DNA of 64,000 nucleotides from Rhodocyclales bacterium GT-UBC (lineage in GTDB: Bacteria; Pseudomonadota; Gammaproteobacteria; Burkholderiales; Rhodocyclaceae), in contig QXPY01000006.1 in the NCBI GenBank assembly GCA_003583745.1, positions 186,001-250,000 on the forward strand, in the 5' to 3' direction. Position numbers and translations under genes: made by a program. Shown one piece after another: positions 12,289-63,185 of the stretch (within the stretch, counting starts at the first letter, position 1; every line of letters starts with the position of its first letter). The notes under the pieces are model-generated. The model saw nothing but the letters and a program-made list of their open reading frames with translations, was not told where the DNA came from and ran no database searches.

Positions 12289-12317
12289 GCATAAGCTTCG
12301 CAGGAATTAGTATTTAG
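12289..12317 (+). promoter_or_regulatory. candidate CysB/SsuR-type activator site, mop-ssuCB promoter
   Basis: GCATAAGC at 12289-12296, then CAGGAAT and GTATTTA ending at 12316. The same arrangement recurs before ssuA (43243) and, more loosely, before suyA (58141) and sbp (63157). It begins 85 bases upstream of the mop start codon. Which LysR-type protein binds it is inference. Confidence 0.6.
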
Positions 12318-12373
12318 AACTCTCCGGCAGCGTGCGCAGAATCCCCCTCATTCAGCGATGAGGACATACCGCC

Positions 12374-12589
12374 ATGAGCATTCAATCCGTCAATGCCCGC
12401 AACCAGTTTGCCGGCCGTATCCGCGAAATCATTCTCGGCCCAGTGGTTTCAGAAGTCGATGTGGAAACGCCTTTCGGTCTCGTGACTTCGGTGATCACCA
12501 CCCGTTCGGTCAAGGAGCTCGATCTCAAGGTCGGCACCGATGTTGTCGCCCTGGTCAAGGCGACCGAAGTGTCGATCGCCAAACTGTGA
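12374..12589 (+). CDS. ssuF: molbindin-like Mop/TOBE protein (SsuF-like)
   Basis: A 71-residue single Mop domain: NARNQFAGRIREIILGPV, then TTRSVKELDLKVGTDVVALVKATEV, the classic molbindin fold that binds molybdate or a related oxyanion as an oligomer. In Pseudomonas putida the ssu sulfonate operon ends in ssuF, a molybdopterin/Mop-type protein, and here the gene directly precedes ssuC-type and ssuB-type genes, so an SsuF-like role is likely. GAGGA lies eleven bases before the start. The link between Mop proteins and sulfonates is known but mechanistically unclear. Confidence 0.8.
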   Translation: MSIQSVNARNQFAGRIREIILGPVVSEVDVETPFGLVTSVITTRSVKELDLKVGTDVVALVKATEVSIAKL

Positions 12590-12636
12590 GGCGAATCAGG
12601 TCGGCATTTCCGATACATTCTCCGGGAGATTGAACG

Positions 12637-13422
12637 ATGGCTTTATCCGATAAGTTGGCGAGAGGGCGCCAAACCCTGATTCCCTGGCTGGTGCCGATCG
12701 GCGTCTTGCTCTTCTGGCAACTGGCGGCGCGTGCCGGCTGGTTGTCCAGCCGCATCCTGCCCGAGCCGCTGGCCGTGCTGCAGGCTGGTTTTACCCTGGC
12801 CGCATCGGGGGAACTGTTTCAACACGTCAAGGTGAGCGCCTTGCGCGCGCTCTCCGGCTTTGCCATCGGCGGCGGCCTGGGGCTGGCCCTCGGCCTGCTC
12901 ACCGGCTCCTTCCGCAAGGCCGAGCTGGCGCTCGACACCACTCTGCAGATGATCCGCAACATCCCGCCGCTGGCGCTGATTCCGCTGGTCATCCTGTGGT
13001 TCGGCATCGACGAGATCGCCAAGCTGTTCCTGATTTCGCTGGGCGTCTTTTTCTCGGTCTACATCAACACCTTTCATGGCATCCGCTCGGTCGATCCGGC
13101 CCTGATCGAAATGGGCAAGAGCTACGGCCTCAAGGGCTGGGGTTTGTATCGCGAGATTATCCTGCCCGGTGCGCTGTCGTCGATCCTGGTCGGCGTGCGC
13201 TATGCGCTGGGTTTCATGTGGGTGATCCTGATCGTCGCCGAAACCATTTCCGCCCAGGCCGGCATCGGCTACATGACGATGAATGCCCGCGAGTTCCTGC
13301 AGACCGATGTCGTCCTGCTCGGCATCCTGCTCTACGCCGTGCTCGGCAAGCTGGCCGATGCCTTCGCCCGGTTGCTCGAACGGCGCTGGCTGAAGTGGAA
13401 CACTTCCTACAATGCTGCCTGA
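12637..13422 (+). CDS. ssuC: ABC transporter permease, sulfonate/nitrate/taurine type
   Basis: A 261-residue permease with about six membrane helices and the coupling-loop signature [24 protein letters not shown] (EAA motif). [18 protein letters not shown] is typical of SsuC/TauC. It imports aliphatic sulfonates or related compounds with the ATPase encoded next. No periplasmic binding protein is encoded in this cluster; candidates lie at 42.2-43.2 kb and 39.5-40.5 kb. Confidence 0.88.
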
Positions 13423-13432
13423 AAGCCCACGC

Positions 13433-14416
13433 ATGAATAACGATCTTCACGAACTCGGTTCGGTCAGCGCGGCTGCCGAGCATCCCGGGCTGGCCGTCGG
13501 CGTCAAGCAACTGGTCAAGCGCTTCGGCGAACGGCAGGTGCTGCATGGCCTGAACCTCAATATCGAAGCGGGCGAATTCATCGCCATCGTCGGCCGCAGC
13601 GGTTGCGGCAAGAGCACCTTGTTGCGCCTGCTGGCCGGGCTGGATGCGACGAGCGGCGGCGAAATACAGCTCAACCGTCAGCCGGCCGAGGCGTTCAAGG
13701 ACGATGTCCGGATGATGTTCCAGGACTCGCGCCTGTTGCCCTGGCGGACGGTGGTGCAGAACGTTGCCATCGGTCTCGAAGGCTCGGCCAGGGAGATTCG
13801 CGCCCGGGCGCTGGAAGTCCTGGCCCAGGTCGGTCTGGCCGACCGTGCCGACGAGTGGCCGAACCGCTTGTCCGGCGGCCAGCGCCAGCGGGTTGCCCTG
13901 GCCCGGGCGCTGATCCACCGGCCGCGCCTGCTGCTGCTCGACGAGCCGCTTGGCGCCCTCGATGCGCTGACCCGTATCGAAATGCAGCGCCTGATCGAGC
14001 AGATCTGGCGGCAACACCGTTTTACCGCCGTGCTGGTCACGCACGACGTCTCGGAAGCCGTGGCGCTGGCTGATCGCATCGTGCTGGTTGAAGCTGGACG
14101 TATCACGCTGGACGAGCCGGTCCCGCTGGGCCGGCCGCGCGAGCACGGCGAGGCCGGTTTTGCCCGGCTGGAGAGTCGCATCCTGAAACGGTTGATGACG
14201 GTCTCGGCGCTTGACAGCGGCAACCAGATCAAGGGGCGGATCACCGAGATCGTCGTCGATAGCGTACTCTCGGAAGTCCGTATCCTGACCCCGGCCGGTC
14301 TGCTGACCGCCACCGTGCTGACCCGCTCGCTGAGCGAGCAGCCGCTGGAACTGGGGGCCGACGTGCTGGCCAGTTTCAAGTCGAACGAAGTGGTGCTGGC
14401 CACCGCAGGGGGATGA
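13433..14416 (+). CDS. ssuB: ABC transporter ATPase, SsuB type, with C-terminal Mop/TOBE domain
   Basis: A 327-residue ATPase: Walker [10 protein letters not shown] at residues 54-62, Q-loop [11 protein letters not shown], signature [15 protein letters not shown], Walker [13 protein letters not shown] and switch His in [10 protein letters not shown]. Residues from about 262 to the end form a separate Mop-like domain ([37 protein letters not shown]) closely resembling the free-standing Mop protein two genes upstream. Ordinary SsuB lacks this domain; it recalls ModC. An alternative start at 13412 overlaps ssuC by 11 bases. Confidence 0.88.
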
Positions 14417-14468
14417 TTCGGCGCTCAAGGCGATGTCATGGCCAGGCTGTCTGGCCGGCGAATACTGC

Positions 14469-15230: not shown

Positions 15231-15239
15231 GCCGCCGGC

Positions 15240-27844: not shown

Positions 27845-28654
27845 TTACTGCAGATAGCTCGGGCGGGCGTATCCCTGGAATTGCTTGTCGAGCACCGCCT
27901 TGTATTCCGGTGACTTGAAGGCGGCGACGATGTCCTGGGTCCAGGGCTTGTTCTGGTCCTCGGTTTTTACCGCAACAACGTTCAGGTAATGCTCCGGCGT
28001 CTTTTCCAGCGCGATGGCATCGGTCAGCTTGAGACCGGAGGCAATGGCGAAGTTGCCGTTGATCACCACGAAGGCGGCGTCATCCAGCGTACGCGGCAAC
28101 TGGGCGGCCTCGATCGGCGTCAGTTGCAGTTTGCGCGGGTTATCCGAGACATCCTTTTCCGTCGCCTTGAGCGGATCGGTGCCGGGCTTGACCTTGAGCA
28201 AGCCGTTCTGCTCCAGGAAGACCAGGGCGCGGGCCAGGTTGGACGGATCGTTGGGCAAGGTGATGCGGTCGCCATCCTTCAATTCGGCCAGGCTCTTGTG
28301 CTTCTTCGAGTACAGGCCGAGCGGCGCAATCGGTGCCTTGATCACGTCCACCAGGTTGAGTCCCTTGTCGGCCGCGAATTTCTTCAGATAGATGATGTGC
28401 TGGAACAGGTTGGCGTCGAGCGAGCCTTGGGCCAACGCCAGATTGGGCTGGACGTAGTCGTTGAACTCGACCAGTTTGACGCTGTAGCCCTTCTTCTCGA
28501 GGATCGGCTTGATGCCAAGCTTGAGCTGGTCGTAGTTGGGGCCGGCGGTGGCGCCCAAGGTCAGGTTTTTCTTTTCCTGGGCAAGAGCGCCCGGCGCGGT
28601 GGCGGCAAGGCCGAATGACAGAGTGGCGGCAAGCAGGGTGTGCAGGATTTTCAT
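27845..28654 (-). CDS. metQ: methionine-type ABC transporter binding protein, MetQ/NlpA family (first paralogue)
   Basis: A 269-residue periplasmic binding protein with signal peptide (ends GALAQ). LGATAGPNYDQLKLGIKPILEKKGY, FNDYVQPNLALAQGSLDANLFQH and LPNDPSNLARALVFLEQ are diagnostic of MetQ. No membrane or ATPase gene is adjacent; a full metNIQ set lies at 36.8-39.1 kb and the two MetQ proteins are close paralogues. Here the gene is downstream of an acireductone dioxygenase gene, so its ligand may be methionine or a thio derivative from salvage. Confidence 0.92.
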   Translation of the reverse strand: MKILHTLLAATLSFGLAATAPGALAQEKKNLTLGATAGPNYDQLKLGIKPILEKKGYSVKLVEFNDYVQPNLALAQGSLDANLFQHIIYLKKFAADKGLNLVDVIKAPIAPLGLYSKKHKSLAELKDGDRITLPNDPSNLARALVFLEQNGLLKVKPGTDPLKATEKDVSDNPRKLQLTPIEAAQLPRTLDDAAFVVINGNFAIASGLKLTDAIALEKTPEHYLNVVAVKTEDQNKPWTQDIVAAFKSPEYKAVLDKQFQGYARPSYLQ

Positions 28655-28701: not shown

Positions 28702-29262
28702 TTAAGCCTGCAGCAGCGCGAGCAAGGCCGGGTCGGCCTGCCGCCCGGTGTAATCGGCAGCCCAATGGCTTTCACGGGAAAAAATGCGCAAGGCCTTGAG
28801 CTGGGGATTGGCCCCCAGCGCAAACCAGTGTTCGGCACCGGCCGGCACGGCGAGGTAGTCGCCGGGGCCGGTTTCCAGCAGGACCTGGCTGCCATCGGCG
28901 CGAACAATGCCGAAATAGCCGGTACCGGTCAGGATGTAGCGGATCTCGTCGTCGGCATGGGTATGCACGCGGACGAATTGCTGGCGCAGGGCGGCAAGGT
29001 CGGGAACCGCCTCGTGCAGCACCACCAGGTCGCGACTCGCACCGGCGGCGCCTTGTACGGCCTCACCCAGTTCACGGTCCAGTTGTTGCAGCAGCAACTG
29101 TTGCTCTGCCGGGTCGAGTGCGCTCCGGGCCAACAGTGCCGTGATCTCCGGCGTGGTGGGTAGCGCCTGGTAATGCAGTGTCAGGCCGAGTTCCTGGGCG
29201 AGGGCGGCGACCTGTTTCGGGTCGCTCACCTGTTTGCCATCGGCGGTAATCAAACGGGCCAT
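28702..29262 (-). CDS. mtnD: acireductone dioxygenase (ARD)
   Basis: A 186-residue cupin-fold enzyme of the methionine salvage pathway. The metal ligands are visible as HTHADDE (H-x-H-x3-E) followed by RYILTGTGYFGI and the fourth ligand in VPAGAEHWFAL. With Fe(II) the family turns acireductone and oxygen into the keto-acid precursor of methionine and formate. The ATG at 29262 follows GGAG at six bases; a frame back to 29445 is longer than the family. No other mtn genes are present in the window. Confidence 0.88.
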   Translation of the reverse strand: MARLITADGKQVSDPKQVAALAQELGLTLHYQALPTTPEITALLARSALDPAEQQLLLQQLDRELGEAVQGAAGASRDLVVLHEAVPDLAALRQQFVRVHTHADDEIRYILTGTGYFGIVRADGSQVLLETGPGDYLAVPAGAEHWFALGANPQLKALRIFSRESHWAADYTGRQADPALLALLQA

Positions 29263-29703
29263 GCCGTGCTCCATCAGGGGCGCCAGATTGTTCGGCGCAT
29301 CCTCGTTTCCGCCGGCTGGCGGGGCAGGGAGCACTGTAGGGAAGCCGCGGCGACGGCGGAAATACTGTTTGCTTGGGTCGATATACGGGGAAGGGAATAT
29401 GGAGTCTTTCGGGCGGCGGCCATGCAACAGCCGGAAAAGGTGCAAATTCTCAAGCGAGCTGAATGCCTCGTTTCATCACTCCTGACCCAGTGGTTTTATC
29501 GTCGCGACCAACGGATATCGGCCGGCATCAGGCCATTAGGAGGTACCCCGGTCCACAGAAATCAGATGGTGCAGACGTCCGCCTTCCTTCGATTACCGGA
29601 TGATGGAGTAGAGTTGAGGGCAGGAGAGTTCAGTACAGGTTATCGGTTGACTCAAATGAATTCACTGAACTTCCCGCTTGACGGCCCGAACGGCGACTGA
29701 AAA
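29263..29703. other. 441-base intergenic gap, no gene recognised
   Basis: The gap between the divergent mtnD and histidine kinase genes holds promoter-like AT-rich stretches (for example TTGACTCAAATGAATTCA near 29646-29663) but no convincing open reading frame, RNA or riboswitch that I could identify. Confidence 0.5.
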
Positions 29704-37590: not shown

Positions 37591-37621
37591 GGTGTCGGGG
37601 ACTCCGTGGGTGGAAATGGGT

Positions 37622-38299
37622 TTAACGCTTGTCGACGCGGCGGGCGAGCCACTGGCCGAAGAATTGGATGCTCTGGACGAGGACGACGAGCAGCACGATG
37701 GTGATCAGCATGACGTCGGTCTGGAAACGGTAATAGCCGTAGCGGATCGCCAGATCGCCGATGCCGCCGCCGCCCACCACGCCGGCCACGGCGGAGTAGG
37801 AGAGAAAGCTGACAGCGGTGATGGTGACGGCGAGGATCAGGCCGGAGCGGGCTTCGACCAGCAAGACCTGGGTGACGATCTGCATGGGGGAAGCCCCCAT
37901 TGCTTCGGCTGCTTCGATGACACCGCGCGGCACGTCGCGCAGGGTCTGCTCGATGATGCGGGCGAAGTAGAAGATGGCGGCCAGCGACAGCGGCACGCTG
38001 GCGGCCAGCGGCCCGATCGAGGTGCCGACGATGTGGCGGGTGAAGGGCGAGACGGCGACCAGCAGGATGATGAAGGGGAAGGAGCGGAAAACGTTGATGA
38101 AACCGTTCGCCACCAGGTTAAAGCGGCGATAGCGGCCGAGTACCTGGCCGCTGCTGGTCAGGAAGACCAGGATGCCGAGGGCGCCGCCGATGATCACTGC
38201 GGCAGTCAGGCAGATGAGCATCATCAGGCCGGTTTCGCCGGCCGCCTTGCCGATTTCCGGCAGCAGTTCGATGAAAGTGTCGAGGATGGAATCAAACAT
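37622..38299 (-). CDS. metI: methionine ABC transporter permease MetI
   Basis: A 225-residue permease with about five helices and coupling loop EAAEAMGASPMQIVTQVLLVEA. GYYRFQTDVMLITIVLLVVLVQSIQF is typical of the MetI C terminus. It overlaps metN by eight bases and is 31 bases upstream of metQ. Confidence 0.95.
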   Translation of the reverse strand: MFDSILDTFIELLPEIGKAAGETGLMMLICLTAAVIIGGALGILVFLTSSGQVLGRYRRFNLVANGFINVFRSFPFIILLVAVSPFTRHIVGTSIGPLAASVPLSLAAIFYFARIIEQTLRDVPRGVIEAAEAMGASPMQIVTQVLLVEARSGLILAVTITAVSFLSYSAVAGVVGGGGIGDLAIRYGYYRFQTDVMLITIVLLVVLVQSIQFFGQWLARRVDKR

Positions 38300-39119
38300 T
38301 GGGCACCTCTTCCAGATGGCTGCCGGCGGTCTCGGGGAGTTCCGGGCTGGCGCCGCCTTCGCCGAATTCGCGTAGCCATTGGGCCAACTGCGATTCCGGC
38401 GGGATCCGGCCGTTGTCGATATTCAGGCGTTCGACGATGCGGCCGGCTTCCATCACCGAGACGCGATGGCACAGGCGGCGGATGACGCCCATTTCGTGAC
38501 TGACCAGCAGGATGGTCACGCCGAGCCGGCGATTGACGTCGGCCAGCACTTCGAGCAGCGATTGGGTGGTGCGCGGGTCGAGTGCCGAGGTCGGTTCGTC
38601 GGCGAGCAGGACATGCGGTTCCGGCGCCAGGGCGCGGGCGATGGCGACGCGCTGCTTCTGGCCACCGGAGAGCTGGGCCGGGTAGGCATCGGACTTTTCG
38701 GAAAGGCCGACGAATTCGAGGCAGGTCTTTACCCGCTCGGCGATCCGCGCTTCGTCGGCGCCGCCGATGCGCAGCGGGAAGGCGACGTTGTCGGCGACGG
38801 TGCGGTTATGCAGCAGGTTGAAGTGCTGGAAGATCATGCCGATCCGCTGGCGGGCGGCGCGCAGCGCCTGCGGGCTCATCGTCATCAGGTCTTCGCCATG
38901 GACGATGACCTGGCCGCTGTCCGGCCGTTCCAGCAGATTGGCCAGGCGCAGCAGGGTCGATTTGCCGGCGCCGGAAAAGCCGATGATGCCGTGGATTTCG
39001 CCCGGCGCGACATCGAGGTCGGTGGCTTGCACCCCGACCTGCAGACCATCCGGCGTACGGAAGCTTTTGCTGACACCGCGCAGCGCGATGGCCGGGATGT
39101 CTTGTTGTTGAGTTGTCAT
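38292..39119 (-). CDS. metN: methionine ABC transporter ATPase MetN
   Basis: A 275-residue ATPase: Walker [10 protein letters not shown], signature [15 protein letters not shown], Walker [14 protein letters not shown] and His switch in [14 protein letters not shown]. It is shorter than E. coli MetN (343 residues): the C-terminal regulatory ACT-like domain that senses methionine is missing or much reduced, the chain ending soon after the ATPase core. Transinhibition by methionine may therefore be absent. Confidence 0.93.
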
Positions 39120-39511
39120 TATGGGAAAAACGCTGTTCTGTTCGAAGTGTGGCGCTCGGGCGGCGATGTGCTGCCGTGCCGTAGACGCTGGCTGGCCGGG
39201 TCGGTTCCTTGCCGGCGGTCGCTACCGGGTCTAGCTAGCCCCGGAAACGCGTAAAGGCGGAACTTTAACGGCCGGACAACGCGATGGCAACCCGGACGGG
39301 CTGATGGATTTCCCTGAATCGGCAAATCCTGCTCAAGCCAGGCAGGCAATTTAACCGAGGCCGGGCGGGGCGTGAAATAACGAATATCTCTTTTCTTATT
39401 CCGCAACGATTTGTTTTTTGTTCCGCTTATATCCAAATCCGAATTTATTCGTTTTCCGGACCCGGTGCGGTCAACAGAATGGCGCCGTCTTTTACCCCTC
39501 AATGGATAGCC
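39120..39511. promoter_or_regulatory. divergent metN / sulfonate-binding protein gene region
   Basis: A 392-base gap with an AT-rich half (39370-39455) close to the plus-strand gene. GCTTATATCC followed by GAATTTATTC at 39425-39451, 87 bases before the start codon, loosely resembles the sulfur-locus element seen elsewhere in the window. No open reading frame is convincing. Confidence 0.4.
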
Positions 39512-40468
39512 ATGAACAAACTCAACAAGATTCTCCGCGCCCTGTTGCTGGCCGGTGCCGGCCTTCTGCTCAACAGCGCCGTCCAGGCCGCCGACCCCGT
39601 CGTCCTGCGCATCGGCGACCAGAACTACTACAACATCCGCGCCTCGGTCGAACTGTCCAAGGCGCTTGAAGGCGCCCCCTACAAGGTCGAATGGGCGCCG
39701 TTCCAGGCAGCTGCACCGCTGGCTGAGGCACTCGAAGCGGGGGCTATCGACATCGGTTTCCTCGGCGACTCCGGTTTCCTGTTCCTGGCTGCAAAAAGCC
39801 CGAATGCCAAACTGATCGGCATCACCCGCCAGAACCCCAAGACGGTCGCCTTGCTGGTACCGAAAAACTCCTCCGCGAAAACGATTGCCGACCTGAAGGG
39901 CAAGAAGGTCGCCTACTGGCCGGGGGCATGGAGCCAGCAACTGACTCTGGGCGCGCTCGACAAGGCCGGCCTGCCAGCCAATCACGTCGATTTCGTCAAG
40001 CTGATGCCGCTTGATGCCGCCAATGCCCTTCCGGGTGGCAGCATCGATGCATTCCCAGTCTGGGAGCCATACATCTCGCAGCAAGTACTGAAGAACGGTG
40101 CCCGAGTGTTGTTCACCGCCGAAGGCATCATTCCGGCGCAGAGCGCGATTGCCGCCAATGCCGCTTCGGTGGCCAGCAAGCATGCCGCCATCGAGGACTT
40201 CCTGGGGCGCCTGAAAAAAGCCCGCGCCTGGGTTGAAGCCAACATTGATACCTATGCCGATGCGTGGGCCACCCGTGCTGCGCTCGATCGCGACGTTTCC
40301 CGCCACTGGCTGGGGCAGGCCAAGCTGACCGTTTTGCCGGTCGATGCCAAGGCCACCGCCGACCTGCAGGTGACGGCCGATTTCCTGGTCAAGGAAAAGG
40401 TCTTGCCGACCGCGCTCGATGTCAAGAAGGTGGTCGATACCTCGTTCAGCAGCGTACTGGCCCGCTAA
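39512..40468 (+). CDS. ABC transporter binding protein, sulfonate/nitrate/taurine type
   Basis: A 318-residue periplasmic binding protein with signal peptide (ends NSAVQA). The SsuA-like fold is seen in VVLRIGDQNYYNIRASVELSKAL, EAGAIDIGFLGDSGFLFLAA and FPVWEPYISQQVL. The lack of neighbouring permease and ATPase genes suggests it feeds a transporter encoded elsewhere, perhaps the ssuCB genes at 12.6 kb. It is only distantly related to the SsuA at 42.2 kb, so the ligand may differ. Confidence 0.85.
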   Translation: MNKLNKILRALLLAGAGLLLNSAVQAADPVVLRIGDQNYYNIRASVELSKALEGAPYKVEWAPFQAAAPLAEALEAGAIDIGFLGDSGFLFLAAKSPNAKLIGITRQNPKTVALLVPKNSSAKTIADLKGKKVAYWPGAWSQQLTLGALDKAGLPANHVDFVKLMPLDAANALPGGSIDAFPVWEPYISQQVLKNGARVLFTAEGIIPAQSAIAANAASVASKHAAIEDFLGRLKKARAWVEANIDTYADAWATRAALDRDVSRHWLGQAKLTVLPVDAKATADLQVTADFLVKEKVLPTALDVKKVVDTSFSSVLAR

Positions 40469-41260: not shown

Positions 41261-42175
41261 TCAGGCCTTCTGTGGTCCGTGGCCGATGAAGGCCGAGACC
41301 CGTTCGCCCCAGCGTTCGAAGGGGTAGTAGTCCCAGATGGCGTGGTGCTGCGTCGCCCAGTTGTCCCAGAAAACCAGACTGTTCGGCGTCCAGCGCACCT
41401 GGGTCTGGAAGGAGAGATGCTTCTCGATGTGGCGGAAGAGCAGTTGCAGCAGCGCATCGCTTTCGGCACGGGTAAGTTGCACGATATGGGAAGTGAAGGC
41501 GGCGTTGACGAAAAGGAATTTGCGACCGGTCAGCGGATGGTGGGCGACAACCGGGTGTTCGCTGGCCGGGAAGCTCTCGCCGGCGGGCGGTTCGGCGCCG
41601 TAGCCGTTGGTCCAGGCCTGCTTGCCGTCGTGGATGGCGGTCAGGCCGTCGAGCAAGCTCTTGAGCGGAGTGGAAAGCGACTCGTAGGCCAGGTAGAGGT
41701 TGGCGAAGGCGGTATTGCCGCCGCCGATTTCCGGTAGCCGGGTGACGCGCAAGAAGGAGCCCCAGATCGGTTCGGCATCGCAGGACACGTCGCTGTGCCA
41801 GGCATCGCCGGCGGTATAGCGCGAAGTACGGACGGTTTTCCAGGCGAGGATTTCCGGATCCTTGCTGCGTGCCGAGATGGTGTCGTTGCTGGCCAGCGCG
41901 TGGCGATGCAGCGTGCCGAAATGACGGGCGAAGCGCTTGTGCTGTTCGGCGTCGATCTCCTGGTCGCGGAAGACCAGCACCAGGTTTTCCGCGATGGCCT
42001 GGCGGATTTCGCCCAGTTGTTCGGCGCTAATGTCCTGGCGCAGGTCGAGGCCTTCGACTTCGGCGCCCAGTGCCGGCGAAATCGGGGTTACCTTGATGTG
42101 CTTGAAATCGCTGCGTGGGCGGGTGTTCCAGCCCTCGATGGCGATCTTGTCGTTGTAGTCCTGATAGAAGCTCAT
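41261..42175 (-). CDS. tauD: TauD/AtsK-type alpha-ketoglutarate dioxygenase
   Basis: A 304-residue Fe(II)/2-oxoglutarate dioxygenase. The iron ligands appear as AWHSDVSC (H-x-D) and the distal His in WATQHHAIWDYYPFERWGERV, with the following Arg binding 2-oxoglutarate. Family members hydroxylate taurine, other sulfonates or alkyl sulfates so that sulfite or sulfate is released. It lies 28 bases after an ssuA gene in the same direction, so sulfur release from an imported organosulfur compound is likely. Taurine versus sulfate ester cannot be told apart here. Confidence 0.9.
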   Translation of the reverse strand: MSFYQDYNDKIAIEGWNTRPRSDFKHIKVTPISPALGAEVEGLDLRQDISAEQLGEIRQAIAENLVLVFRDQEIDAEQHKRFARHFGTLHRHALASNDTISARSKDPEILAWKTVRTSRYTAGDAWHSDVSCDAEPIWGSFLRVTRLPEIGGGNTAFANLYLAYESLSTPLKSLLDGLTAIHDGKQAWTNGYGAEPPAGESFPASEHPVVAHHPLTGRKFLFVNAAFTSHIVQLTRAESDALLQLLFRHIEKHLSFQTQVRWTPNSLVFWDNWATQHHAIWDYYPFERWGERVSAFIGHGPQKA

Positions 42176-42203
42176 GTTTTTTCCTTGGAAGAGAAGGCGG
42201 GAC

Positions 42204-43160
42204 TTACTTGCCGGCCAGGCTGGCATCCTTGACGCGGATGGGCTTGGGGATCAGCTTGAGTTCGAAGAAGGTATCGCCGAGCTTCTGCTGGGCATCGAGC
42301 ACCGGTTCGCTGATCGGCTTGATGAGGTGGCTGAAGTTGCGCAGCGTCTGTTCGACGACGGCGGTATCGAGACCCTGCAGTGGCGCGATCTTGCTGGCCG
42401 CTGCCTTGTAGTTTTTGGTGATCCAGAGGCCATGCTGTTGCAGCTCGTCGAACAGCTGCTTGATCACTTCGCCCTGTTTGCTGGCGAACTCGCGCTCGGC
42501 GAGGAAGAAGCCGTAGTTGTTCACCACGCCGGTGCCGTCGGCGACGATGCGGGCGCCGATCTGCTGTTGGGCGGCGGCGGTGTAAGGGTCCCAGATCACC
42601 CAGGCATCGACGCTGCCGCGCTCGAAAGCGGCGCGGGCATCGGCTGGCGGAATGAATACGGGCTGGATGTCGGTGTATTTGAGGCCATGCTTTTCGAGCA
42701 GCTTGACCAGCAGGTAATGCACGTTGGAGCCCTTGTTGAGGGCGACTTTCTTGCCCTTGAGGTCGGTGACGGCCTTGATCGGCGAGTCCTTGGGCACGAT
42801 CAGCGCCTCCGCCTTCGGCTCGGCATCCTCATAGCCGACATAGACGAAATTGGCCCCGGCCGCCTGGGCGAAGATCGGCGGCGCCTCGCCGACGTAGCCG
42901 AAGTCGATGGCGCCGACGTTGAGACCTTCCAGCAACTGCGGGCCGGCCGGGAACTCGACCCATTTGACTTCGATGCCCTGCGCGGCCAGGCGTTTGTCGA
43001 GGGTGCCCTCGGCCTTGAGCAGGGTGAGCAGGCTGGCCGACTTCTGGAAGCCGATGCGCAGCAGCTTCGGGTTGTATTCGGCATGGACGGTGGCGGACAG
43101 CGAGATCACCGATAGCCCGAGGGCAATGCCGAGTGCCTTCTTCAAGAATTGACGTTTCAT
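42204..43160 (-). CDS. ssuA: aliphatic sulfonate ABC transporter binding protein SsuA
   Basis: A 318-residue periplasmic binding protein, signal peptide ending SATVHAE. SsuA hallmarks are LRIGFQKSASLLTLLKAEGTL, LNVGAIDFGYVGEAPPIFAQAAG and DAWVIWDPYTAAAQQQIGAR. It heads a two-gene unit with the dioxygenase. The membrane partners are not here; the mop-ssuC-ssuB cluster at 12.4 kb has no binding protein and shares an upstream element with this gene. Confidence 0.93.
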   Translation of the reverse strand: MKRQFLKKALGIALGLSVISLSATVHAEYNPKLLRIGFQKSASLLTLLKAEGTLDKRLAAQGIEVKWVEFPAGPQLLEGLNVGAIDFGYVGEAPPIFAQAAGANFVYVGYEDAEPKAEALIVPKDSPIKAVTDLKGKKVALNKGSNVHYLLVKLLEKHGLKYTDIQPVFIPPADARAAFERGSVDAWVIWDPYTAAAQQQIGARIVADGTGVVNNYGFFLAEREFASKQGEVIKQLFDELQQHGLWITKNYKAAASKIAPLQGLDTAVVEQTLRNFSHLIKPISEPVLDAQQKLGDTFFELKLIPKPIRVKDASLAGK

Positions 43161-43214
43161 GGACTTTCCCTTGCTTGATGGATGGGCAGAGTGTCGATGA
43201 AGCCAAGGCCGCGG

Positions 43215-43243
43215 ATAAATACCTATTCCTTCATTGCTTATGC
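43215..43243 (-). promoter_or_regulatory. candidate CysB/SsuR-type activator site, ssuA promoter
   Basis: On the minus strand GCATAAGC from 43243, then AGGAAT and GTATTTA, matching the mop-ssuCB site at 21 or more positions. It starts 83 bases before the ssuA start codon. Part of a larger dyad TTATGCATAA at its 5' side. Confidence 0.65.
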
Positions 43244-51853: not shown

Positions 51854-52861
51854 TTATTGCGCCGCCGCCAGTTGTTGCAATTGGCGCAGCAGTTTTTCCG
51901 GTAGCTCGATGCCGTCACGCTCGGCCCGTGCCCGGTTGGCGTCGCGGCGGCAGCCGGGCAAGCGGACGCCGGCGTCGGCGCTCATCGCGGCAAGCAGGAC
52001 TTCGAGTCGTTCGGCGTAACTGTCGCTGCCGGAGAGGGCTGCCGGATTGATGACCAGGAATAGCTGGCCGATGGCTGCCTTGTTGCCGGTTTCCGAGAAG
52101 AACGAATCGGCCTCGAAGGCAAAGGCGGCACCGGCCACTGCCCCGATCAGCAGTTCGACCCAGAGGGCCAGCATGGCCCCTTTGACGCCACCGGCCGGCA
52201 ACATGCTGCCTTGCAGGCCAAGTTCCGGGTCGGTCGTCGGTGTTCCGTCCGGTGCCAGCGCCCAGGTGGGTGGGATCGCCTGCTTGTTCTGGGCGGCGAC
52301 CAGCAGCTTGCCGCGGGCCACTTCCGACAAGGAAAGGTCGATGACCAACGGTGCTGCGGCACGGCGAGGGAAGATCGCGGCAATCGGATTGGTCCCGAAC
52401 AAGGGCGTTTTGCCGCCCCAGGGGGCGATCGCTGCCGGAGAATTGCCCAGTGCCAGGCCGACCAGTCCGGCTTCGGCGACCGCTTCGAGATGATGGGCGG
52501 CGGCGCCGAAATGGTTGCTGCGCACCACCGAGGCCAGACCGATGCCTTGTAGGCGGGCGACCGCGATGGCTTCGCCGACCGCCAGCCGGCATGCCGGGTA
52601 GGCCAGGCCGTCGCCGGCATCGATGACGCGTACGGCGCCGCTGCTGCGAATGACGCGCGGTATGGCCTGGCCATCGACGCGACCGTGGCGGAGATGGGCG
52701 GCATAAAGCGGAATGCGCGACACGCCGTGCGAGGCGAGTCCGGCCGCATCGGCGGCAACCAGCGCCAGGGCGGTGTCGATGGCGGCGGCCGGTGCGGCAC
52801 CGGCGGCAATCAGGGCTTGTGTGGCGAGATTCTGCAGGGCTTCCAGCGAAAGGGCGGGCAT
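51854..52861 (-). CDS. comC: (R)-sulfolactate dehydrogenase ComC-like (Ldh family)
   Basis: A 335-residue NAD(P)-dependent dehydrogenase of the malate/L-lactate/sulfolactate family: SHGVSRIPLYAAHLRHG, VVRSNHFGAAAHHLEAVAEAGLVG and WGGKTPLFGTNPIAAIFP with VIDLSLSEVARGK. In sulfolactate degraders ComC interconverts (R)-sulfolactate and sulfopyruvate. The start at 52861 has AAGGAAA; an ATG nine codons earlier also has a usable site. It follows slcC by 90 bases. Confidence 0.88.
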   Translation of the reverse strand: MPALSLEALQNLATQALIAAGAAPAAAIDTALALVAADAAGLASHGVSRIPLYAAHLRHGRVDGQAIPRVIRSSGAVRVIDAGDGLAYPACRLAVGEAIAVARLQGIGLASVVRSNHFGAAAHHLEAVAEAGLVGLALGNSPAAIAPWGGKTPLFGTNPIAAIFPRRAAAPLVIDLSLSEVARGKLLVAAQNKQAIPPTWALAPDGTPTTDPELGLQGSMLPAGGVKGAMLALWVELLIGAVAGAAFAFEADSFFSETGNKAAIGQLFLVINPAALSGSDSYAERLEVLLAAMSADAGVRLPGCRRDANRARAERDGIELPEKLLRQLQQLAAAQ

Positions 52862-52951
52862 GGTTTTCCTTGAGAGGCTTTGAGGCATGGCGGTCTCCGG
52901 GGCCAGGCCGAAACGTTCAGCGGCCCCGGAGGTAAGCAGTCGGGTGGGGGT

Positions 52952-53887
52952 TCAGCCGAGGCTTTGCGCCACGCGCTCGGCGATCAGCTTGCTGACCCGG
53001 ACATTGGCTTCGCGACTCAGCCCGGCGATATGCGGGGTGAGCCAGACGTTGGGCAGCCCGGCCAGCGGCGAGCCGGCGGCAAGCGGTTCTTGGGCAAAGA
53101 CGTCGATGGCTGCACCGGAGAGATGGCCGCTGCGCAAGGCGTCGGCCAGCGCCGCCTCGTCGACGATGCCGCCGCGTGCGGTGTTGATCAGCAGCGCACC
53201 GGGCTTCAGTCGGGCCAGCGTTTCCCGGCCGAACAGGCCGCGCGTGCCGGCATTGAGCGGCAGGTGCAGCGAAACGACATCGGCCTCGGCAAGCAATTGC
53301 TCGAAGCCGACCGGTTCGACGTTCTGGTAGGCCCAGACCAGTGAATCGTCACGGTGGGCCGGGTCGTGGGCGATGACGCGCAGGCCGATGGCGCCGGCCA
53401 GTTTGGCGGTCAGCTGGCCGATGTCGCCGAAGCCGACCAGGCCCAGCGTCTTGCCGTAGGCCTCGCGGCCATCCGAAAGATAGGCTCGCGGCCATTTGCC
53501 GGCGGCGATGTCGTCGCTGCGGTCATACGCGCCGCGCAGGCCGATCAGGGTCATCGCCAACACGTATTCGGCCACCGCCCGCGCATTGGCGCCCAGTGCC
53601 GGATGCACGACGATGCGGCGCGCCTGACAGCCGTCGAGATCGATGTTGTCCAGCCCGACACCGAGCCGACCGACCACCTCGAGCTTCGGGGCGCGGGTCA
53701 GCAGATCGGCATTGACCTGGGTACGGTTGCGGACGATCAGGGCGCGGGCATTTTCGAGCAGGGGATAGATCGCCTCGCCCTGATCGACCAGCTCCGGATC
53801 GTAATGAACGACATACTTCTCGCGCAGCGCCTCGACGGCGCTGCTTTCCATGAATTCCGTGATGACGATGGTCGGCGTGTCAGACAT
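52952..53887 (-). CDS. slcC: (S)-sulfolactate dehydrogenase SlcC-like (2-hydroxyacid dehydrogenase family)
   Basis: A 311-residue D-isomer-type 2-hydroxyacid dehydrogenase: VVGRLGVGLDNIDLDGC, dinucleotide site LGLVGFGDIGQL, then LINTARGGIVDEAAL, DVFAQEPL and the catalytic His in WLTPHIAGLS. In Chromohalobacter SlcC oxidises (S)-sulfolactate to sulfopyruvate. With ComC it would invert (S) to (R), the form that SuyAB cleaves. The start overlaps the permease stop by eight bases. Confidence 0.88.
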   Translation of the reverse strand: MSDTPTIVITEFMESSAVEALREKYVVHYDPELVDQGEAIYPLLENARALIVRNRTQVNADLLTRAPKLEVVGRLGVGLDNIDLDGCQARRIVVHPALGANARAVAEYVLAMTLIGLRGAYDRSDDIAAGKWPRAYLSDGREAYGKTLGLVGFGDIGQLTAKLAGAIGLRVIAHDPAHRDDSLVWAYQNVEPVGFEQLLAEADVVSLHLPLNAGTRGLFGRETLARLKPGALLINTARGGIVDEAALADALRSGHLSGAAIDVFAQEPLAAGSPLAGLPNVWLTPHIAGLSREANVRVSKLIAERVAQSLG

Positions 53888-54779
53888 GCATCCCCCAGCG
53901 GCGCACGGTACGGGTTTCGATAGTGCGGAAGATCAGGTTCTCGACGGCCAGACCGATCAGGATCACGGTGAGCAGGCCAGCGAAGACCGAAGGGATTTCC
54001 AGCTGGTTCTTGTTTTCGTAGATGAACCAGCCCAGGCCACCCGAGCCCGAGCTGACGCCGAAGACCAGTTCGGCGGCGATCAGCGTCCGCCAGGCGAACG
54101 CCCAGCCGTTCTTGAGACCGGAAAGAATCGACGGAAACGCTGCCGGAATCAGGATCTGCGTCACGTAGCGCGGGCCGGACAGGCCGTAGTTGCGGCCGAC
54201 CATGCGCAGCGTCGTCGATACCGACTTGAAGCCGGCGTGGGTACTCAACGCGACCGGCCAGAGCACCGAATGCACCAGCACGAAGATCAGGCTGCCGTTG
54301 CCCAGGCCGAACCAGAGCAGGGCCAGCGGCAGCAGCGCGATGGCGGGCAGCGGGTTGAACATCGCGGTCAGCGTTTCCAGCAGGTCGTTGCCGAGGCGTG
54401 AACCGATGGCGATGCCGGTGAGCAGCGTGGCGAGGACGATGCCGCCGCCGTAGCCGGTGAGCAGGATTTTCAGCGTGAAGCTGGCGCGGGTCAGCAGGGC
54501 GCCGGATTCGATGCCGTCGAACAGGGCTTCCAGCGTTGCGCCGAAGGTCGGGAAGAGCAGCGGGTTGTTGAGGCGGCTGGCATAGAGCTGCCAGGCTGCG
54601 GCAAGCAGCACCAGGATCAGCGTCTTGCGCAGCGTCGGGATGTTGTAGAGCGTCTCGGCCAGGCCGAGTGGCCGTTCGGCCAGCACCGGCGCCGGGTCGG
54701 CGGCCGGTGCTGGGGTCGGCGCGGCCGACAGTTTGGGCTGGAGCAAGGCGCCGGCCGGGTATCCGGTATCAAGCGACAT
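53880..54779 (-). CDS. ABC transporter permease, sulfonate type
   Basis: A 299-residue permease with an extended Pro/Ala-rich cytoplasmic start and about six helices; MVGRNYGLSGPRYVTQILIPAAFPSILSG is the EAA loop and LLPLALLWFGLGN is typical of SsuC/TauC. The ATG at 54779 overlaps the ATPase gene by 11 bases. In this operon it most likely imports sulfolactate. Confidence 0.9.
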   Translation of the reverse strand: MSLDTGYPAGALLQPKLSAAPTPAPAADPAPVLAERPLGLAETLYNIPTLRKTLILVLLAAAWQLYASRLNNPLLFPTFGATLEALFDGIESGALLTRASFTLKILLTGYGGGIVLATLLTGIAIGSRLGNDLLETLTAMFNPLPAIALLPLALLWFGLGNGSLIFVLVHSVLWPVALSTHAGFKSVSTTLRMVGRNYGLSGPRYVTQILIPAAFPSILSGLKNGWAFAWRTLIAAELVFGVSSGSGGLGWFIYENKNQLEIPSVFAGLLTVILIGLAVENLIFRTIETRTVRRWGMHV

Positions 54780-55551
54780 GGAAGGCTTCCTCGCGTTCGG
54801 TCGGGTTGTCGAAAAGCTGGCGGTGGATGCGCTCGGAGAGCAATTGCCCGGAATCATCGACACGGTCGCTGCCGTCGCTCTCGATCAGGTCGCGAACGCG
54901 CCCCGGGTGGGCTGACAGCAGCAGGATGCGATTGCCCAGCTTGACCGCCTCGGGAATCGAGTGGGTGACGAAAAGCACGGTGAAATGGGTGTCGTCCCAC
55001 AGGCGTAGCAACTCGTCCTGCATCTGCTGCCGGGTCAGCGCATCGAGCGCGGCGAAGGGCTCGTCCATCAGCAAAATCTGCGGTTCCATCGCCATGCCGC
55101 GGGCGATCGCGACGCGCTGCTTCATGCCGCCCGACAAGGTGTGCGGATGGCTGTCGGCAAACTTGGCGAGGCCGACCTTGGCGATGTAGTGCAAGGCCCG
55201 TTCCTCGGCTTCCTTGTCACCCAGCGTGCGGCTGGCGGTCAGGGCGAACTTGACGTTTTCCTTGACCGTCTTCCAGGGCAGCAACTGGTCGAATTCCTGA
55301 AAGACCATGACCCGGTCGGGTCCCGGCTTCCTGATCGGCACGCCGGCCAGCCGGATTTCGCCGGCCACCGGCGCGATATAGCCGCCCACTGCTTTCAGTA
55401 GTGTCGACTTGCCGCAGCCGGAAGGGCCGAGCAGCACGAAGCGGTCGCCGGTACGGATCTGGAAGCTGACCCGGTTGGTGGCCGTGACCAGCCGTTCGCT
55501 GGTCTTATACTGCAGGGTGACGTCACGAACGTCGAGCAGAGGCTGGCTCAC
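54769..55551 (-). CDS. ABC transporter ATPase, sulfonate/nitrate type
   Basis: A 260-residue ATPase: Walker A GPSGCGKST, Q-loop MVFQEFDQLLPW, signature [15 protein letters not shown], Walker B ILLMDEPFAALD and His switch LFVTHSIPEAVKLG. Unlike the SsuB at 13.4 kb it has no Mop domain. It belongs with the permease and binding protein of the sulfolactate operon. Confidence 0.92.
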   Translation of the reverse strand: MSQPLLDVRDVTLQYKTSERLVTATNRVSFQIRTGDRFVLLGPSGCGKSTLLKAVGGYIAPVAGEIRLAGVPIRKPGPDRVMVFQEFDQLLPWKTVKENVKFALTASRTLGDKEAEERALHYIAKVGLAKFADSHPHTLSGGMKQRVAIARGMAMEPQILLMDEPFAALDALTRQQMQDELLRLWDDTHFTVLFVTHSIPEAVKLGNRILLLSAHPGRVRDLIESDGSDRVDDSGQLLSERIHRQLFDNPTEREEAFHVA

Positions 55552-55553
55552 GA

Positions 55554-56564
55554 TCAGCTTCCCGGCAGGTGGTGCACTTCCGGGAAGAACAGGTCTTTCC
55601 AGCTGGCCGGGTTTTGCTTGATGGTGCCGATCTTGAACAGGAAGTCGGAGTACTTGGTGACGTTCTGCGGCGTCAGCGTAAAAGTGACCTGCGGGTCGGC
55701 CAAGATCTGCTGCACTTCTTCCAGCGAGGTCTTCTTGTCGTTGGCGTAGCTCAGGTAGAGCTGGGCCGCCGCCTTCTTGTCCCGGTTGATGATGTCGGTC
55801 GCTTCCTGGAAGGCCTTGAGGAAGGCGCCATAAAGCTTGGGGTTGTCGTCATGGAACCTGCGGCTGGCGTAGAGCACATTGAAGGTGGCCGGGCCGCCGA
55901 GGACGTCGAAGGAATTGAGAATGGTGCGAATGCCTTCCTTCTTGGCCTCCAGTTGCGAGAACGGTGGCGAGGTGAAATGGGCGTTGATCTCGCCGGTGCC
56001 GGAGGTCAGCGCGACATAGGCGTCCGGGTGGGCCAGCGAGACGGTGTAGGGGTCGAGCTTGAAGGCATTGGCGTCGCCGAACTCCTTGGCGGCAGCCATT
56101 TGCAGCAACACCGGCTGGAAGCCGACCTTGACGGCGGGGACCGCGATCTTGTCCTTGTCGGTCAGGTCGCGGATGCTGCGCACGTTGGGGTTGCGCGTAT
56201 TGAGCAGGTTGGGCATCGAATTCATAGCCGCCACCAGCTTCACTTCGCCCTTGGTCTTGGCCCACAGCGTGATTGCCGGCGGTGCGCCAGCAGAAGCGAT
56301 ATCGAGCGAGTTGGAAAGCAGGGCGTCGTTCATCACGTTGGCGCCGGCAAACTTGGCCCAGGTCACCTTGACCTCGCCCAGGCCGGCCGCCTTGGCGTGT
56401 TTCTCGAGCAGTTTCTGGTGTTCGACGATCAGCGTCGGCAGGTAACTGATGCCGTATTGCTGGGCGATGCGGATTTCGCCGGCTTCGGCCAGGGCTGCCT
56501 GGCTTTGTACGGTCAGGCCGAGCCCGAGCAGGCTGACGAACAGGGTGGGAATGATTTTTTTCAT
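55554..56564 (-). CDS. ABC transporter binding protein, taurine/sulfonate type (probable sulfolactate binder)
   Basis: A 336-residue periplasmic binding protein with a signal peptide (ends SQAALAEA). IRIAQQYGISYLPTLIVEHQKLLE and MNDALLSNSLDIASAGAPPAI are typical of SsuA/TauA/NMT1-like proteins; KFAGANVM and INAHFTSPPFSQLEAKK follow. AGGAGA precedes the ATG at 56564. It lies between suyB and the ATPase gene, so its ligand should be sulfolactate or a precursor. Confidence 0.88.
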   Translation of the reverse strand: MKKIIPTLFVSLLGLGLTVQSQAALAEAGEIRIAQQYGISYLPTLIVEHQKLLEKHAKAAGLGEVKVTWAKFAGANVMNDALLSNSLDIASAGAPPAITLWAKTKGEVKLVAAMNSMPNLLNTRNPNVRSIRDLTDKDKIAVPAVKVGFQPVLLQMAAAKEFGDANAFKLDPYTVSLAHPDAYVALTSGTGEINAHFTSPPFSQLEAKKEGIRTILNSFDVLGGPATFNVLYASRRFHDDNPKLYGAFLKAFQEATDIINRDKKAAAQLYLSYANDKKTSLEEVQQILADPQVTFTLTPQNVTKYSDFLFKIGTIKQNPASWKDLFFPEVHHLPGS

Positions 56565-56590: not shown

Positions 56591-57754
56591 TCAGGCGCTC
56601 CGGTACAGCTTGGTGAGCACGAATTCGCGGTGGCCCAGTGCTTCGGCGGCGGTCAGGCGGCCATTGGCGGTACGGATGGTGATGTCGAGCAATGCATCGC
56701 CGGCCTGATCGAGATTGACTTCGCGTTGCAGCAAGCCGGAAACGTCGAGATCGATGTGCTCGCCCATGGTCCGCACAGTGCGCGGATTGGCCGTCAGCTT
56801 GATGACCGGCAGGATCGGGTTGCCGATGACGTTGCCCTGGCCGGTCGGGAACAGATGCACGGCAAAGCCGGCGGCAGCGGCGAGCGTCACCATCTCGGCG
56901 GCGGCCGAGCTTGAATCCATGAACCACAGGCCCTTGCCGGTCGGTGTTTCGGCCGGTTCCAGCACGCCATCGACCAGACACTTCTTGCCGATCTTCTGGA
57001 TGTTGCCGAGCGCCTTTTCCTCGATCGTGGTCAGGCCGCCGATGATGTTGCCCTTGGTCGGCTGCGATTCGGATAGGTCGTCGGTCTTGTTGGCCAGGAT
57101 GAAGTCGTTATAGGCGTTCCAGGTCTTGAGGAAAGCCTCGCCGATCTCCGGTGTGCGGGCGCGCTGGGCGACCAGGTGTTCGGCACCGGTGATCTCCGAG
57201 GTTTCGCCGAAAAGCAGGGTATTGCCCTGTTCATAGAGCTTGTCGAAGGCATTGCCGACAGTCGGGTTGGCGCCGCAGCCGGAGGTGGTGTCGGACTCGC
57301 CGCACTTGGTCGATACCCACAGTTCGGATATCGGATGCTCGGTGCGTTGCAACTCCGACGCCCATTGCAGGTATTCCTTGGCAACGCGGGAGGCGGCGGC
57401 GATGGTGTTGATGTCGCCATTGAGTTCGATCGAGAAGCCCTGTACCGGCTTGCCGGTGGCGGCGATGCCGTCGACCACGCGCTGCGTCCAGCCCGGCTCG
57501 ATGCCGATGACGATGACGGCGGCGACATTGGGGTTCGAACCGGTGCCGATCAGCGTCCGGAAATGCAGTTCGAGGTCGGCGCCGAATTGCAGGCGGCCAT
57601 AGGGATGGGGCAGGGCCAGCGTGCCCTTGATGTTGTGGGCAACGGCTTCGGAAGCGGCATTGGACAGGTCGTCCACGGGCAGGATGATGACGTGGTTGCG
57701 CACGCCGACACGGCCGTTTTCGCGGCGATAACCCCAGAAATTAGGCAGGCTCAT
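56591..57754 (-). CDS. suyB: (2R)-sulfolactate sulfo-lyase large subunit SuyB
   Basis: A 387-residue protein of the UxaA/altronate dehydratase family: [42 protein letters not shown] and [22 protein letters not shown], whose cysteines hold the iron site. In sulfolactate degraders SuyAB splits (R)-sulfolactate to pyruvate and sulfite. The adjoining suyA and the two dehydrogenase genes fix the assignment over altronate dehydratase. Confidence 0.9.
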
Positions 57755-57760
57755 TGCTTC

Positions 57761-58042
57761 TTACCACCGTTTGGTTTTGACGTTGTGAACATGCAGGTGC
57801 TCGCCGCGCTTGATCGGAGCAACTGCCCGGCCGATGTCATGGCCGTACTTGATGACCGTATCGCCTTCGGCAATGTCGGTCAGGGCCAGCTTGTGGCCGA
57901 TGGGGATGATGTCGCGGACGGTGATGGTGATCGTTTCATCGGTATCCATCACCCAGCCGGTCAATACCTGGCCGGCCAGGATGTTCTCGACCACGGCGAC
58001 GCCGGTCGAGTCTTCCGGGCTATGCACCACAAAATGAATCAT
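57761..58042 (-). CDS. suyA: (2R)-sulfolactate sulfo-lyase small subunit SuyA
   Basis: A 93-residue SAF-domain protein: FVVHSPEDSTGVAVVENI, TGWVMDTDETITITVRDIIPIGHKLAL and KYGHDIGRAVAPIKRGEHLHVHNV. UxaA-type enzymes have this domain as a separate subunit or an N-terminal part; here it stands six bases upstream of suyB. It is the first gene of an eight-gene minus-strand operon. Confidence 0.9.
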   Translation of the reverse strand: MIHFVVHSPEDSTGVAVVENILAGQVLTGWVMDTDETITITVRDIIPIGHKLALTDIAEGDTVIKYGHDIGRAVAPIKRGEHLHVHNVKTKRW

Positions 58043-58112
58043 TGCTTCCTCGTCTGGAAAAACCTGGCAGGGCCAGTCACAGGCCGGATGCTAGAGAAGG
58101 GGCCCGTGATCC

Positions 58113-58141
58113 AGAACGACGTATTTCTGCATTGCTTATGC
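58113..58141 (-). promoter_or_regulatory. candidate CysB/SsuR-type activator site, suyA promoter
   Basis: On the minus strand GCATAAGCAATG from 58141, identical over 12 bases to the ssuA site, then AGAAATACGTCGTTC. The last 13 bases of this are exactly shared with the element before sbp (63157). It starts 99 bases before the suyA start. Confidence 0.6.
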
Positions 58142-62486: not shown

Positions 62487-62503
62487 CCTTCGAGGAGTTT
62501 TTC

Positions 62504-63124
62504 ATGTTGTTACGCACGATCGCCCGGATCAGCCTGCTTGGGCTGTCCGCTTCACTGCTGCCTGTTTCCGCCCTGGCCGTGGCCAATATCGATCAGCCGG
62601 CACCGCCTTTTTCAGCCCAGAGCGCTGACGGCAATACCGTCAATCTGGCCGCCTATCGGGGCAAAACGGTGGTGCTGGAATGGACCAATCATGAATGCCC
62701 CTACGTCCGTAAGCATTACGAGAGCGGCAACATCCCGCAGTTGCAGAAGGAGGCTGCGGCGCGCGGCATCGTCTGGCTGCAGGTGATTTCATCGGCACCG
62801 GGCAAGCAGGGCCATGTCGACGGTGCGACGGCGCTCAAGGTCAATGCGACGCGCGATGCCCGACCGGCCGGCATCATCCTCGATCCGGAAGGCAAGATCG
62901 CCCGCCTGTACGGCGCCCAGACGACGCCCCACATCTTCATCATCAACCCGGCCGGTGAACTGGTTTACAAGGGCGGGATCGACAGCGTCGCAAGTAGCAA
63001 GAAGGAAGACCTGGCCACTGCCGAAAACTACGTCCGGCTGGCCTTTGCCGACATTTCCGCGCAGCGTCGCATCGCCCAGGCCAGCACGCGTCCGTATGGC
63101 TGCACCATCAAGTACGCCGACTGA
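62504..63124 (+). CDS. exported redoxin (AhpC/TSA-like thioredoxin-fold)
   Basis: A 206-residue protein with signal peptide (ends VSALAV). The domain starts FSAQSADGNTVNLAAYRGKTVVLEWTN and the active-site-like NHECPYVRKHYESGNIP has a single Cys; a second Cys is at the C terminus in YGCTIKYA. The family pairs with ScsB-like reductases and probably reduces peroxides or sulfur species in the periplasm. GAGGAG precedes ATG 62504 by seven bases. Confidence 0.87.
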   Translation: MLLRTIARISLLGLSASLLPVSALAVANIDQPAPPFSAQSADGNTVNLAAYRGKTVVLEWTNHECPYVRKHYESGNIPQLQKEAAARGIVWLQVISSAPGKQGHVDGATALKVNATRDARPAGIILDPEGKIARLYGAQTTPHIFIINPAGELVYKGGIDSVASSKKEDLATAENYVRLAFADISAQRRIAQASTRPYGCTIKYAD

Positions 63125-63156
63125 GTCTTCCGGCTCTTTTCATTTCCGGATGACCG

Positions 63157-63185
63157 GCATATCGAAATAAAAAATACGTCGTTCC
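63157..63185 (+). promoter_or_regulatory. candidate CysB-type activator site, sbp promoter
   Basis: GGCATA, ten bases, then AAATACGTCGTTC, exactly the 13 bases seen at the suyA site with the same internal distance. It starts 89 bases before the sbp start codon. A sulfate-transport promoter is a standard CysB target. Confidence 0.6.

Follow-up and report, generated by a model that had tools for sequence, protein, structure and literature searches.

Boxes with a fixed-distance -10-like hexamer precede sulfur-acquisition genes and suyAB in Rhodocyclales bacterium GT-UBC and are predicted sites of a CysB-family activator

The window analysed here, a stretch of 64,000 nucleotides from contig QXPY01000006.1 of Rhodocyclales bacterium GT-UBC, holds four 28-base boxes (S1 to S4), each followed, 20 bases past its end, by a -10-like hexamer. 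S1 (12289..12316, +; hexamer CAGAAT, 12337..12342, +) precedes mop-ssuCB, a + strand group comprising a mop-like TOBE-domain protein (12374..12589, PF03459), an ssuC-like ABC permease (12637..13422, PF00528, named from its position) and an ssuB-like ATPase with a C-terminal TOBE domain (13412..14416), which scored 355.8 bits on the aliphatic sulfonates ATPase model, below the cut-off of 395. S2 (43216..43243, -; hexamer GACACT, 43190..43195, -) precedes an SsuA-family sulfonate-binding protein (42204..43160, -; NF008588 325.8 bits, above the cut-off of 299) and a TauD-family dioxygenase (41261..42226, -; PF02668). S4 (63157..63184, +; hexamer TAGATT, 63205..63210, +) lies before the sulfate-binding protein gene sbp (63246..64000, +; NF008022 400.9 bits, above the cut-off of 288), which runs past the window end.

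S3 (58114..58141, -; hexamer TAGCAT, 58088..58093, -) stands before the suyAB operon on the same strand. The product of suyA (57761..58042, -) has no Pfam or NCBIfam match, and the gene is named by its place before suyB (56591..57754, -), whose product scored 159.2 bits on the galactarate dehydratase family, below the cut-off of 730.85, and is 74.9% identical to a UxaA-family protein of the Cupriavidus pinatubonensis hps cluster. These are followed by a tau/ssu-type importer with binding protein, ATPase and permease (53880..56564, -) and by two dehydrogenases, slcC- and comC-like (51854..53887, -), named by position and family (PF02615); this pair reached 256.7 bits on the phosphoglycerate dehydrogenase model (cut-off 454) and 210.8 bits on the L-sulfolactate dehydrogenase model (cut-off 500).

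A preliminary description had placed the four elements at 12289(+), 43243(-), 58141(-) and 63157(+), and their letters match verbatim. The distances from the first base to the start codon (85, 83, 99 and 89 bases, S1 to S4) agree with the 83-99 given there, and the strings said to be common to the elements were recovered in register. The absence of a CysB-clade regulator gene from the window also held, as far as the CysB profile search shows; the LysR gene near mop-ssuCB (15240-16130, -) scored just 92.6 bits on the CysB model.

A 28-column matrix of the four sites scored them at 37-44 bits, the next best of the approximately 128,000 window positions on both strands reaching 15.6 bits. The boxes share 13 to 22 of 28 bases in pairs, and every site was recovered by the matrix of the other three above all non-training window positions (left-out site against best other position: 22.4/16.9, 36.4/17.3, 36.6/18.4 and 19.5/12.1 bits). 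A loose pattern run over the whole 4.68-Mb genome gave 12 matches at up to 3 mismatches and the backward control gave 9, so the pattern by itself resolves only the strongest sites; S1 to S4 were its best matches (0, 0, 0 and 1 mismatch). Four of its eight further matches bunch on contig C9, directly upstream of cysA and a CysB-family gene.

Three additional boxes lie in the window, at 29386(-), 39401(-) and 39427(+), each again with a hexamer 20 bases further on. The first (29359..29386, -; TACAGT, 29333..29338, -) precedes an ARD/cupin-family gene (28702..29274, -; PF03079, start codon read as 29274) and a MetQ/NlpA-type binding protein (27845..28654, -; PF03180). The second (39374..39401, -; TAAATT, 39348..39353, -) lies 282 bases from the metN start, before the methionine-type ABC importer metN, metI, metQ (36790..39119, -; metN and metQ NCBIfam matches below cut-offs); an Rfam scan of the window found no family at gathering score, so no known riboswitch accounts for the long metN leader. 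The third (39427..39454, +; CAGAAT, 39475..39480, +) precedes an SsuA/NMT1-like binding protein (39512..40468, +; start codon read as 39512).

Elsewhere in the genome, upstream reading and searches place boxes on C9 before cysA-cysB2, a small uncharacterised gene, ssuA2, a second sbp and a CoA ligase, and on contig C5 before a third sbp. A 13-site model returned 15 matches at E<=10, namely its 13 training sites and two others, one before metY (O-acetylhomoserine sulfhydrylase, NF006004 781.7 bits, above cut-off) and one, in the loose-pattern list too, before an uncharacterised gene beside a TonB receptor. When the hexamer was included in a 54-column model, 18 matches were obtained at E<=10, all with E<=0.141, the newly found boxes standing before a binding protein of the oligopeptide type, before an amino-acid binding protein that scored 142.9 bits on the cystine model (cut-off 312), and before a pair, judged TctB/TctA-like by eye, that diverges from metY. 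Eight random 20-kb stretches of the same genome (319,152 positions) reached at most 7.7 bits, against 28-50 bits for 17 own sites, most of which are training sites. A weaker match of 16.4 bits precedes tauE-cysI-cysH beside cysB, with a -10-like hexamer seen by eye at 19 bases. The regulon described with four sites is therefore extended to about 18, with boxes before sbp, cysA-ssuR, ssuA, metNIQ, metY and suyAB, and its element belongs to a putative promoter whose -10-like hexamer keeps a constant spacing from it. The regulon looks clustered, all 18 matches falling on two of the 47 contigs, nine on C5 and nine on C9 (together 790 of 4684 kb). Among relatives, G087 has six matches and an ssuR orthologue inside 85 kb, and in G062 the matches are more scattered.

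The majority consensus of the 28-base box is GNATAAGCAAATAAGAANTNNNTCGTTC. TANNNT was observed exactly 20 bases past the box in 21 of 34 sites; 5000 shuffles reached 6 at most. The sites were picked on the 28-mer without use of the hexamer, and the 34 were drawn from 43 aligned rows after the alignment had been seen. The second position of the hexamer is A in 32 and the sixth is T in 31 of these 34. The nine omitted rows were our own tauE-cysI and cysB1, the relatives' L119, L120, L123, L126 and L130 (a duplicate of L129), and suyA L037 and L043; L123 and L130 have TANNNT at +20 and the other seven do not, giving a full count of 23/43. Of the 121 matches from relatives, 89 have TANNNT at an offset of 45-48 from the start of the match, and other offsets are nearly devoid of it, a result partly by construction, as the search model includes the hexamer. 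The LysR signature is T-N11-A; 21 of the 29 training sites carry it as T4/A16, and 27 of 29 have T4 with A17. Judged from this alignment, the 28-mer is half of a putative promoter and the -10-like hexamer its other part. If the hexamer is indeed a -10, the box would span about -60 to -33 and adjoin a poor -35, which is the layout of an activator-dependent promoter.

Whole-genome and relatives scans with a model of the element had been proposed as a check in the preliminary description. Carried out on 120 genomes including our own at E<=0.1, with about 12 matches expected by chance across the other 119, the scan gave matches in 32 genomes and a strong enrichment before sulfur genes: in the 31 other genomes 65 of 121 matches, those from related genomes not being mutually independent, against 3 of 127 control ORFs (fixed reference set). 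Some of the sulfur labels rest on 28-36% identity only (tauD 3, Ec_ssuA 2, ssuA1 1), and 59/121 remain without them; the three labelled control ORFs resemble ABC and LysR proteins at 28-42%. Of the 65 genes, 46 are sbp2-like, cysT or cysA, and boxes also stand before cysI, cysD, and tauD- or tauA-type genes. Recurrent genes without a known sulfur role follow 20 of the 121 (12 small protein, 7 CoA ligase, 1 tctA), 33 precede an ORF without reference match and 3 have no ORF; some matches seemingly lie inside coding DNA, e.g. in G019. The unreferenced ORFs include a sulfoacetaldehyde acetyltransferase gene, xsc, in one relative (TIGR03457 825.9 bits, cut-off 676.4). The model (R2) was trained on sites of our own genome, G002, G007, G017 and G021 and on seven suyA loci; excluding the five genomes known as training-site sources, 45/85 matches precede sulfur genes, training overlap being counted only for genomes known as sources (the training locus L035 is apparently G051). 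At the tighter E<=0.01 the fraction is 45/76. Outside the genus, where about five of the nine matches are expected by chance, seven precede sulfur genes, including cysI, cysD and tauA. The proposal that the four loci form a sulfur regulon is thus supported by the enrichment and by two CysB-family regulators encoded elsewhere in the genome.

Several genes behind the box are of uncertain function. A 135-aa protein without Pfam or NCBIfam match (L021:7154-7561, C9) is the recurrent first boxed gene of 12 of the 121 relatives' matches, and its gene lies near cysA and ssuR in our genome and in G007. A PaaK-like CoA ligase with a box (L022:9428-10774, C9) is found behind 7 of the 121, and the ssuA2 cluster (L021:11566-14752, C9) contains CoA-transferase subunits and an ORF reading as enoyl-CoA hydratase; the boxed ligase and these CoA genes suggest an uncharacterised CoA-dependent organosulfur pathway. 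Boxes in relatives (L256, L252, L241, L264 and similar) also precede Ser_hydrolase (PF06821), EAL-domain, FadL/TodX-type and CoA_binding_2 proteins, with by-eye counts of 4, 3, 4 and 3 and one of each Pfam-scanned; we know of no sulfur role for them.

For suyAB, a model built without any suyA site scored the suyA promoters of L041, L035 and our own genome at 36.1, 33.2 and 44.3 bits, though these boxes differ mutually. The closest suyB loci belong to metagenome-assembled genomes under various labels, the best (95%) labelled Azonexus. Nine loci have a suyB at least 84% identical, and six of their suyA promoters reach at least 10 bits, L036, L037 and L043 being below. Over all 80 suyB loci, 11 have a promoter-window score of at least 10. 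Among 1.72 million background positions 24 score as high, and two of these are good promoter-like sites in their own right (33.2 in L041, ahead of the gene that precedes suyA, and 23.7 in L036). Four of the 11 (L093, L094, L100 and L114) are AT-rich and may score by chance. None of the Variovorax and Bordetella suyB loci reaches 10 bits. As the box stands before some suyB loci only, its association with the operon is limited to part of the family.

CysB, Cbl and SsuR act as LysR activators of sulfonate and sulfate genes. Two CysB-subfamily genes were identified in the genome (NF009327 484 and 463.5 bits, cut-off 402). The C9 gene, outside the window and directly behind cysA, encodes a protein that scores higher on the Cbl model (424.8 bits) than on the CysB model (about 365.6-365.8) and is 53% identical to E. 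coli Cbl and 45% to CysB. The C14 gene, beside tauE-cysI-cysH, shows the reverse (CysB model about 425.5-425.9, Cbl model 338.2 bits); neither protein reaches the Cbl cut-off of 491 or the CysB cut-off of 436. In the genus (72 genomes including our own), 22 have an orthologue of the C9 protein at 78% identity or more, and the box occurs in 21 of these 22 versus 4 of the 50 without it (p = 3e-13), a co-occurrence confounded by linkage because many boxes lie near ssuR; without the six genomes known as training-site sources it is 15/16 versus 4/50 (p = 2e-10). Outside the genus, G029, G037 and G097 have matches no more than 4 kb from a cysB-family gene. Of the regulator types named earlier, the likely reader is an SsuR/Cbl-type protein rather than CysB alone.

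The genus-mates G006, G008, G060, G067 and G077, with only a 61-64% identical paralogue, have zero matches in the relatives scan; G080 has SsuR and zero matches; G065 and G071 carry one sbp box each without SsuR. In G076, which has 8 matches, no SsuR was found; contig C16 of this genome breaks off close to the position that G064 predicts for it. In 27 genus-mates lacking a close SsuR, 40 sbp promoters were scored; 6 of them (from five genomes that gave no match in the main relatives scan, which used stricter filters) reach at least 20 and several others show related variants, so CysB or remoter paralogues may read this box or one like it. Before sbp, genus-mates that lack the SsuR orthologue (L331-L370) often bear a different, related element, for example ATTCTTTC-ACAGAATAA before TAGACT, possibly a CysB-type variant.

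It is accordingly conceivable, if tentatively so, that the main reader of the same box is CysB (C14) or that both paralogues read it, SsuR being one of several. The high-scoring sbp promoters just described would fit, as would the weaker match before tauE-cysI-cysH beside our own cysB. Outside the genus, a box stands before a cysI gene that neighbours cysB in G029 and before cysD in G097; moreover, a B. cenocepacia cysN operon is under CysB and SsuR control according to PMC3633348. A CysB-family match is nevertheless present in 70 of the 72 genus genomes, yet the strong box tracks the SsuR orthologue. The box family is probably common to CysB-type regulators, its strong form being tied to SsuR.

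It is improbable that the 54-base promoter as a whole is recognised by some other regulator or by an alternative sigma factor: the fixed distance from box to -10 would equally suit a sigma-dependent promoter, but the -10 looks like an ordinary TANNNT, the window LysR gene falls far under the two CysB-family genes on the CysB model, and gene content, cysA-ssuR linkage and SsuR co-occurrence all indicate the CysB family. Chance likeness, or recently copied functionless promoter DNA, can practically be dismissed, for although only four sites were known at the outset and these vary among themselves, leave-one-out recovery, genome-wide specificity, the enrichment in relatives and the suyA-free scores of mutually differing boxes all speak against it.

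Compared with characterised systems, the nearest is the SsuR regulon of B. cenocepacia, which reportedly has sulfonate and taurine targets (Lochowska 2011, Iwanicka-Nowicka 2007). There, some 44 bases preceding or overlapping the -35 are said to be enough for SsuR binding, and a box ending 20 bases before a -10-like hexamer would fit such a region. Homology among the B. cenocepacia sites was reportedly called limited; here, by contrast, a clear consensus and a fixed-distance -10 are found, and the boxed genes extend to suyAB, methionine-type importers and one relative's xsc. In both systems a gene for a CysB-family LysR activator lies behind cysA: PMC7970998 gives the order sbp, cysT, cysW, cysA, ssuR for B. 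cenocepacia, and our C9 locus matches its cysA-then-ssuR order. A 3.2-Mb B. cenocepacia record, whose ORFs carry no family assignment and in which the named SsuR targets were not located, gave 5 matches at E<=1, one before an ORF reading as SsuA. Two similar box-like sites, one pointing the opposite way, lie upstream of an SsuA-like gene in both L309 (B. cenocepacia) and L313 (B. arboris), with scores far above the rest of each locus.

The CysB and Cbl regulons of E. coli share the regulator family and many of the same target types. No good box was found in the E. coli tau, ssu, cysP, sbp, cysD and cysJ regions, scanned by way of positive control, where the best target promoter (ssuE) scored 5.8 bits; the overall best, 8.1 bits, is at an unrelated place. 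The Azospirillum sbp region likewise has no box (0.6 bits). In the tauA region of a Pseudomonas aeruginosa plasmid, the best site (15.6 bits, 153 bases before tauA, TAATCT at +20) is suggestive only.

The dissimilatory hpsRNOUPsuyAB cluster of Cupriavidus pinatubonensis, described with its SuyAB pathway in PMC11382572, resembles the window operon in its suyB-type gene, which is 75% identical and has a UxaA-family gene of suyA size next to it. It differs in encoding a LacI-family regulator together with hpsN and hpsO, and its 17 kb contain no box (best 5.1 bits); the window operon combines an importer and slcC/comC-like genes with the sulfur box. Considered as a dissimilatory suyAB cluster, the window operon does not fit: it carries the sulfur box, and no hpsN-like gene was found among the operon genes scanned (those before the last ORF, 51398-51826).

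Overall, the sequences show the box, a -10-like hexamer at constant spacing, the downstream genes, and a regulator gene that co-occurs with the box. We hold it quite probable that the elements, set within promoters of fixed geometry, are bound by a LysR activator of the CysB family, the likeliest candidate being the SsuR/Cbl-type paralogue behind cysA on C9. Binding and activation, the identity of the regulator and the sulfur signal we infer along the following lines. With the hexamer 20 bases past it, the box would stand in for a good -35, and when sulfate or cysteine is scarce the activator would recruit RNA polymerase there; sulfate limitation is suggested as the signal by gene content and regulator family. 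Importers of sulfate, sulfonates and methionine and the desulfonating enzymes TauD and SuyAB (the latter for sulfolactate) would be switched on jointly, together with cysA-ssuR, the regulator's own operon.

A regulon of the CysB/SsuR kind is known as such; the novelty of these data lies in the consensus and its fixed-distance -10, the breadth of the regulon and the inclusion of suyAB. The literature search, whose coverage excluded most subscription papers and so does not prove absence, returned neither suyAB under sulfur control nor an SsuR/CysB consensus for Rhodocyclales. According to PMC11423573, Xsc is essential for taurine assimilation in Rhodobacter capsulatus; its part in sulfur assimilation being known already, the claim of novelty is confined to SuyAB, which the literature consulted describes as a carbon-catabolic enzyme. 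We lean, with some reserve, towards the view that in an Azonexus-like lineage SuyAB was recruited to the SsuR sulfur-starvation regulon, with sulfolactate as an assimilatory sulfur source, that xsc was likewise recruited in one relative, and that the same response takes in the small uncharacterised protein, the CoA-ligase pathway and EAL-domain proteins.

A precise SsuR-type box with a fixed -10 would make the sulfur regulons of these bacteria readable from sequence, and the boxed genes give a list of uncharacterised genes that probably serve sulfur scavenging. By placing SuyAB, usually held to be dissimilatory, under apparent sulfur control, the box predicts that sulfolactate is scavenged for its sulfur.
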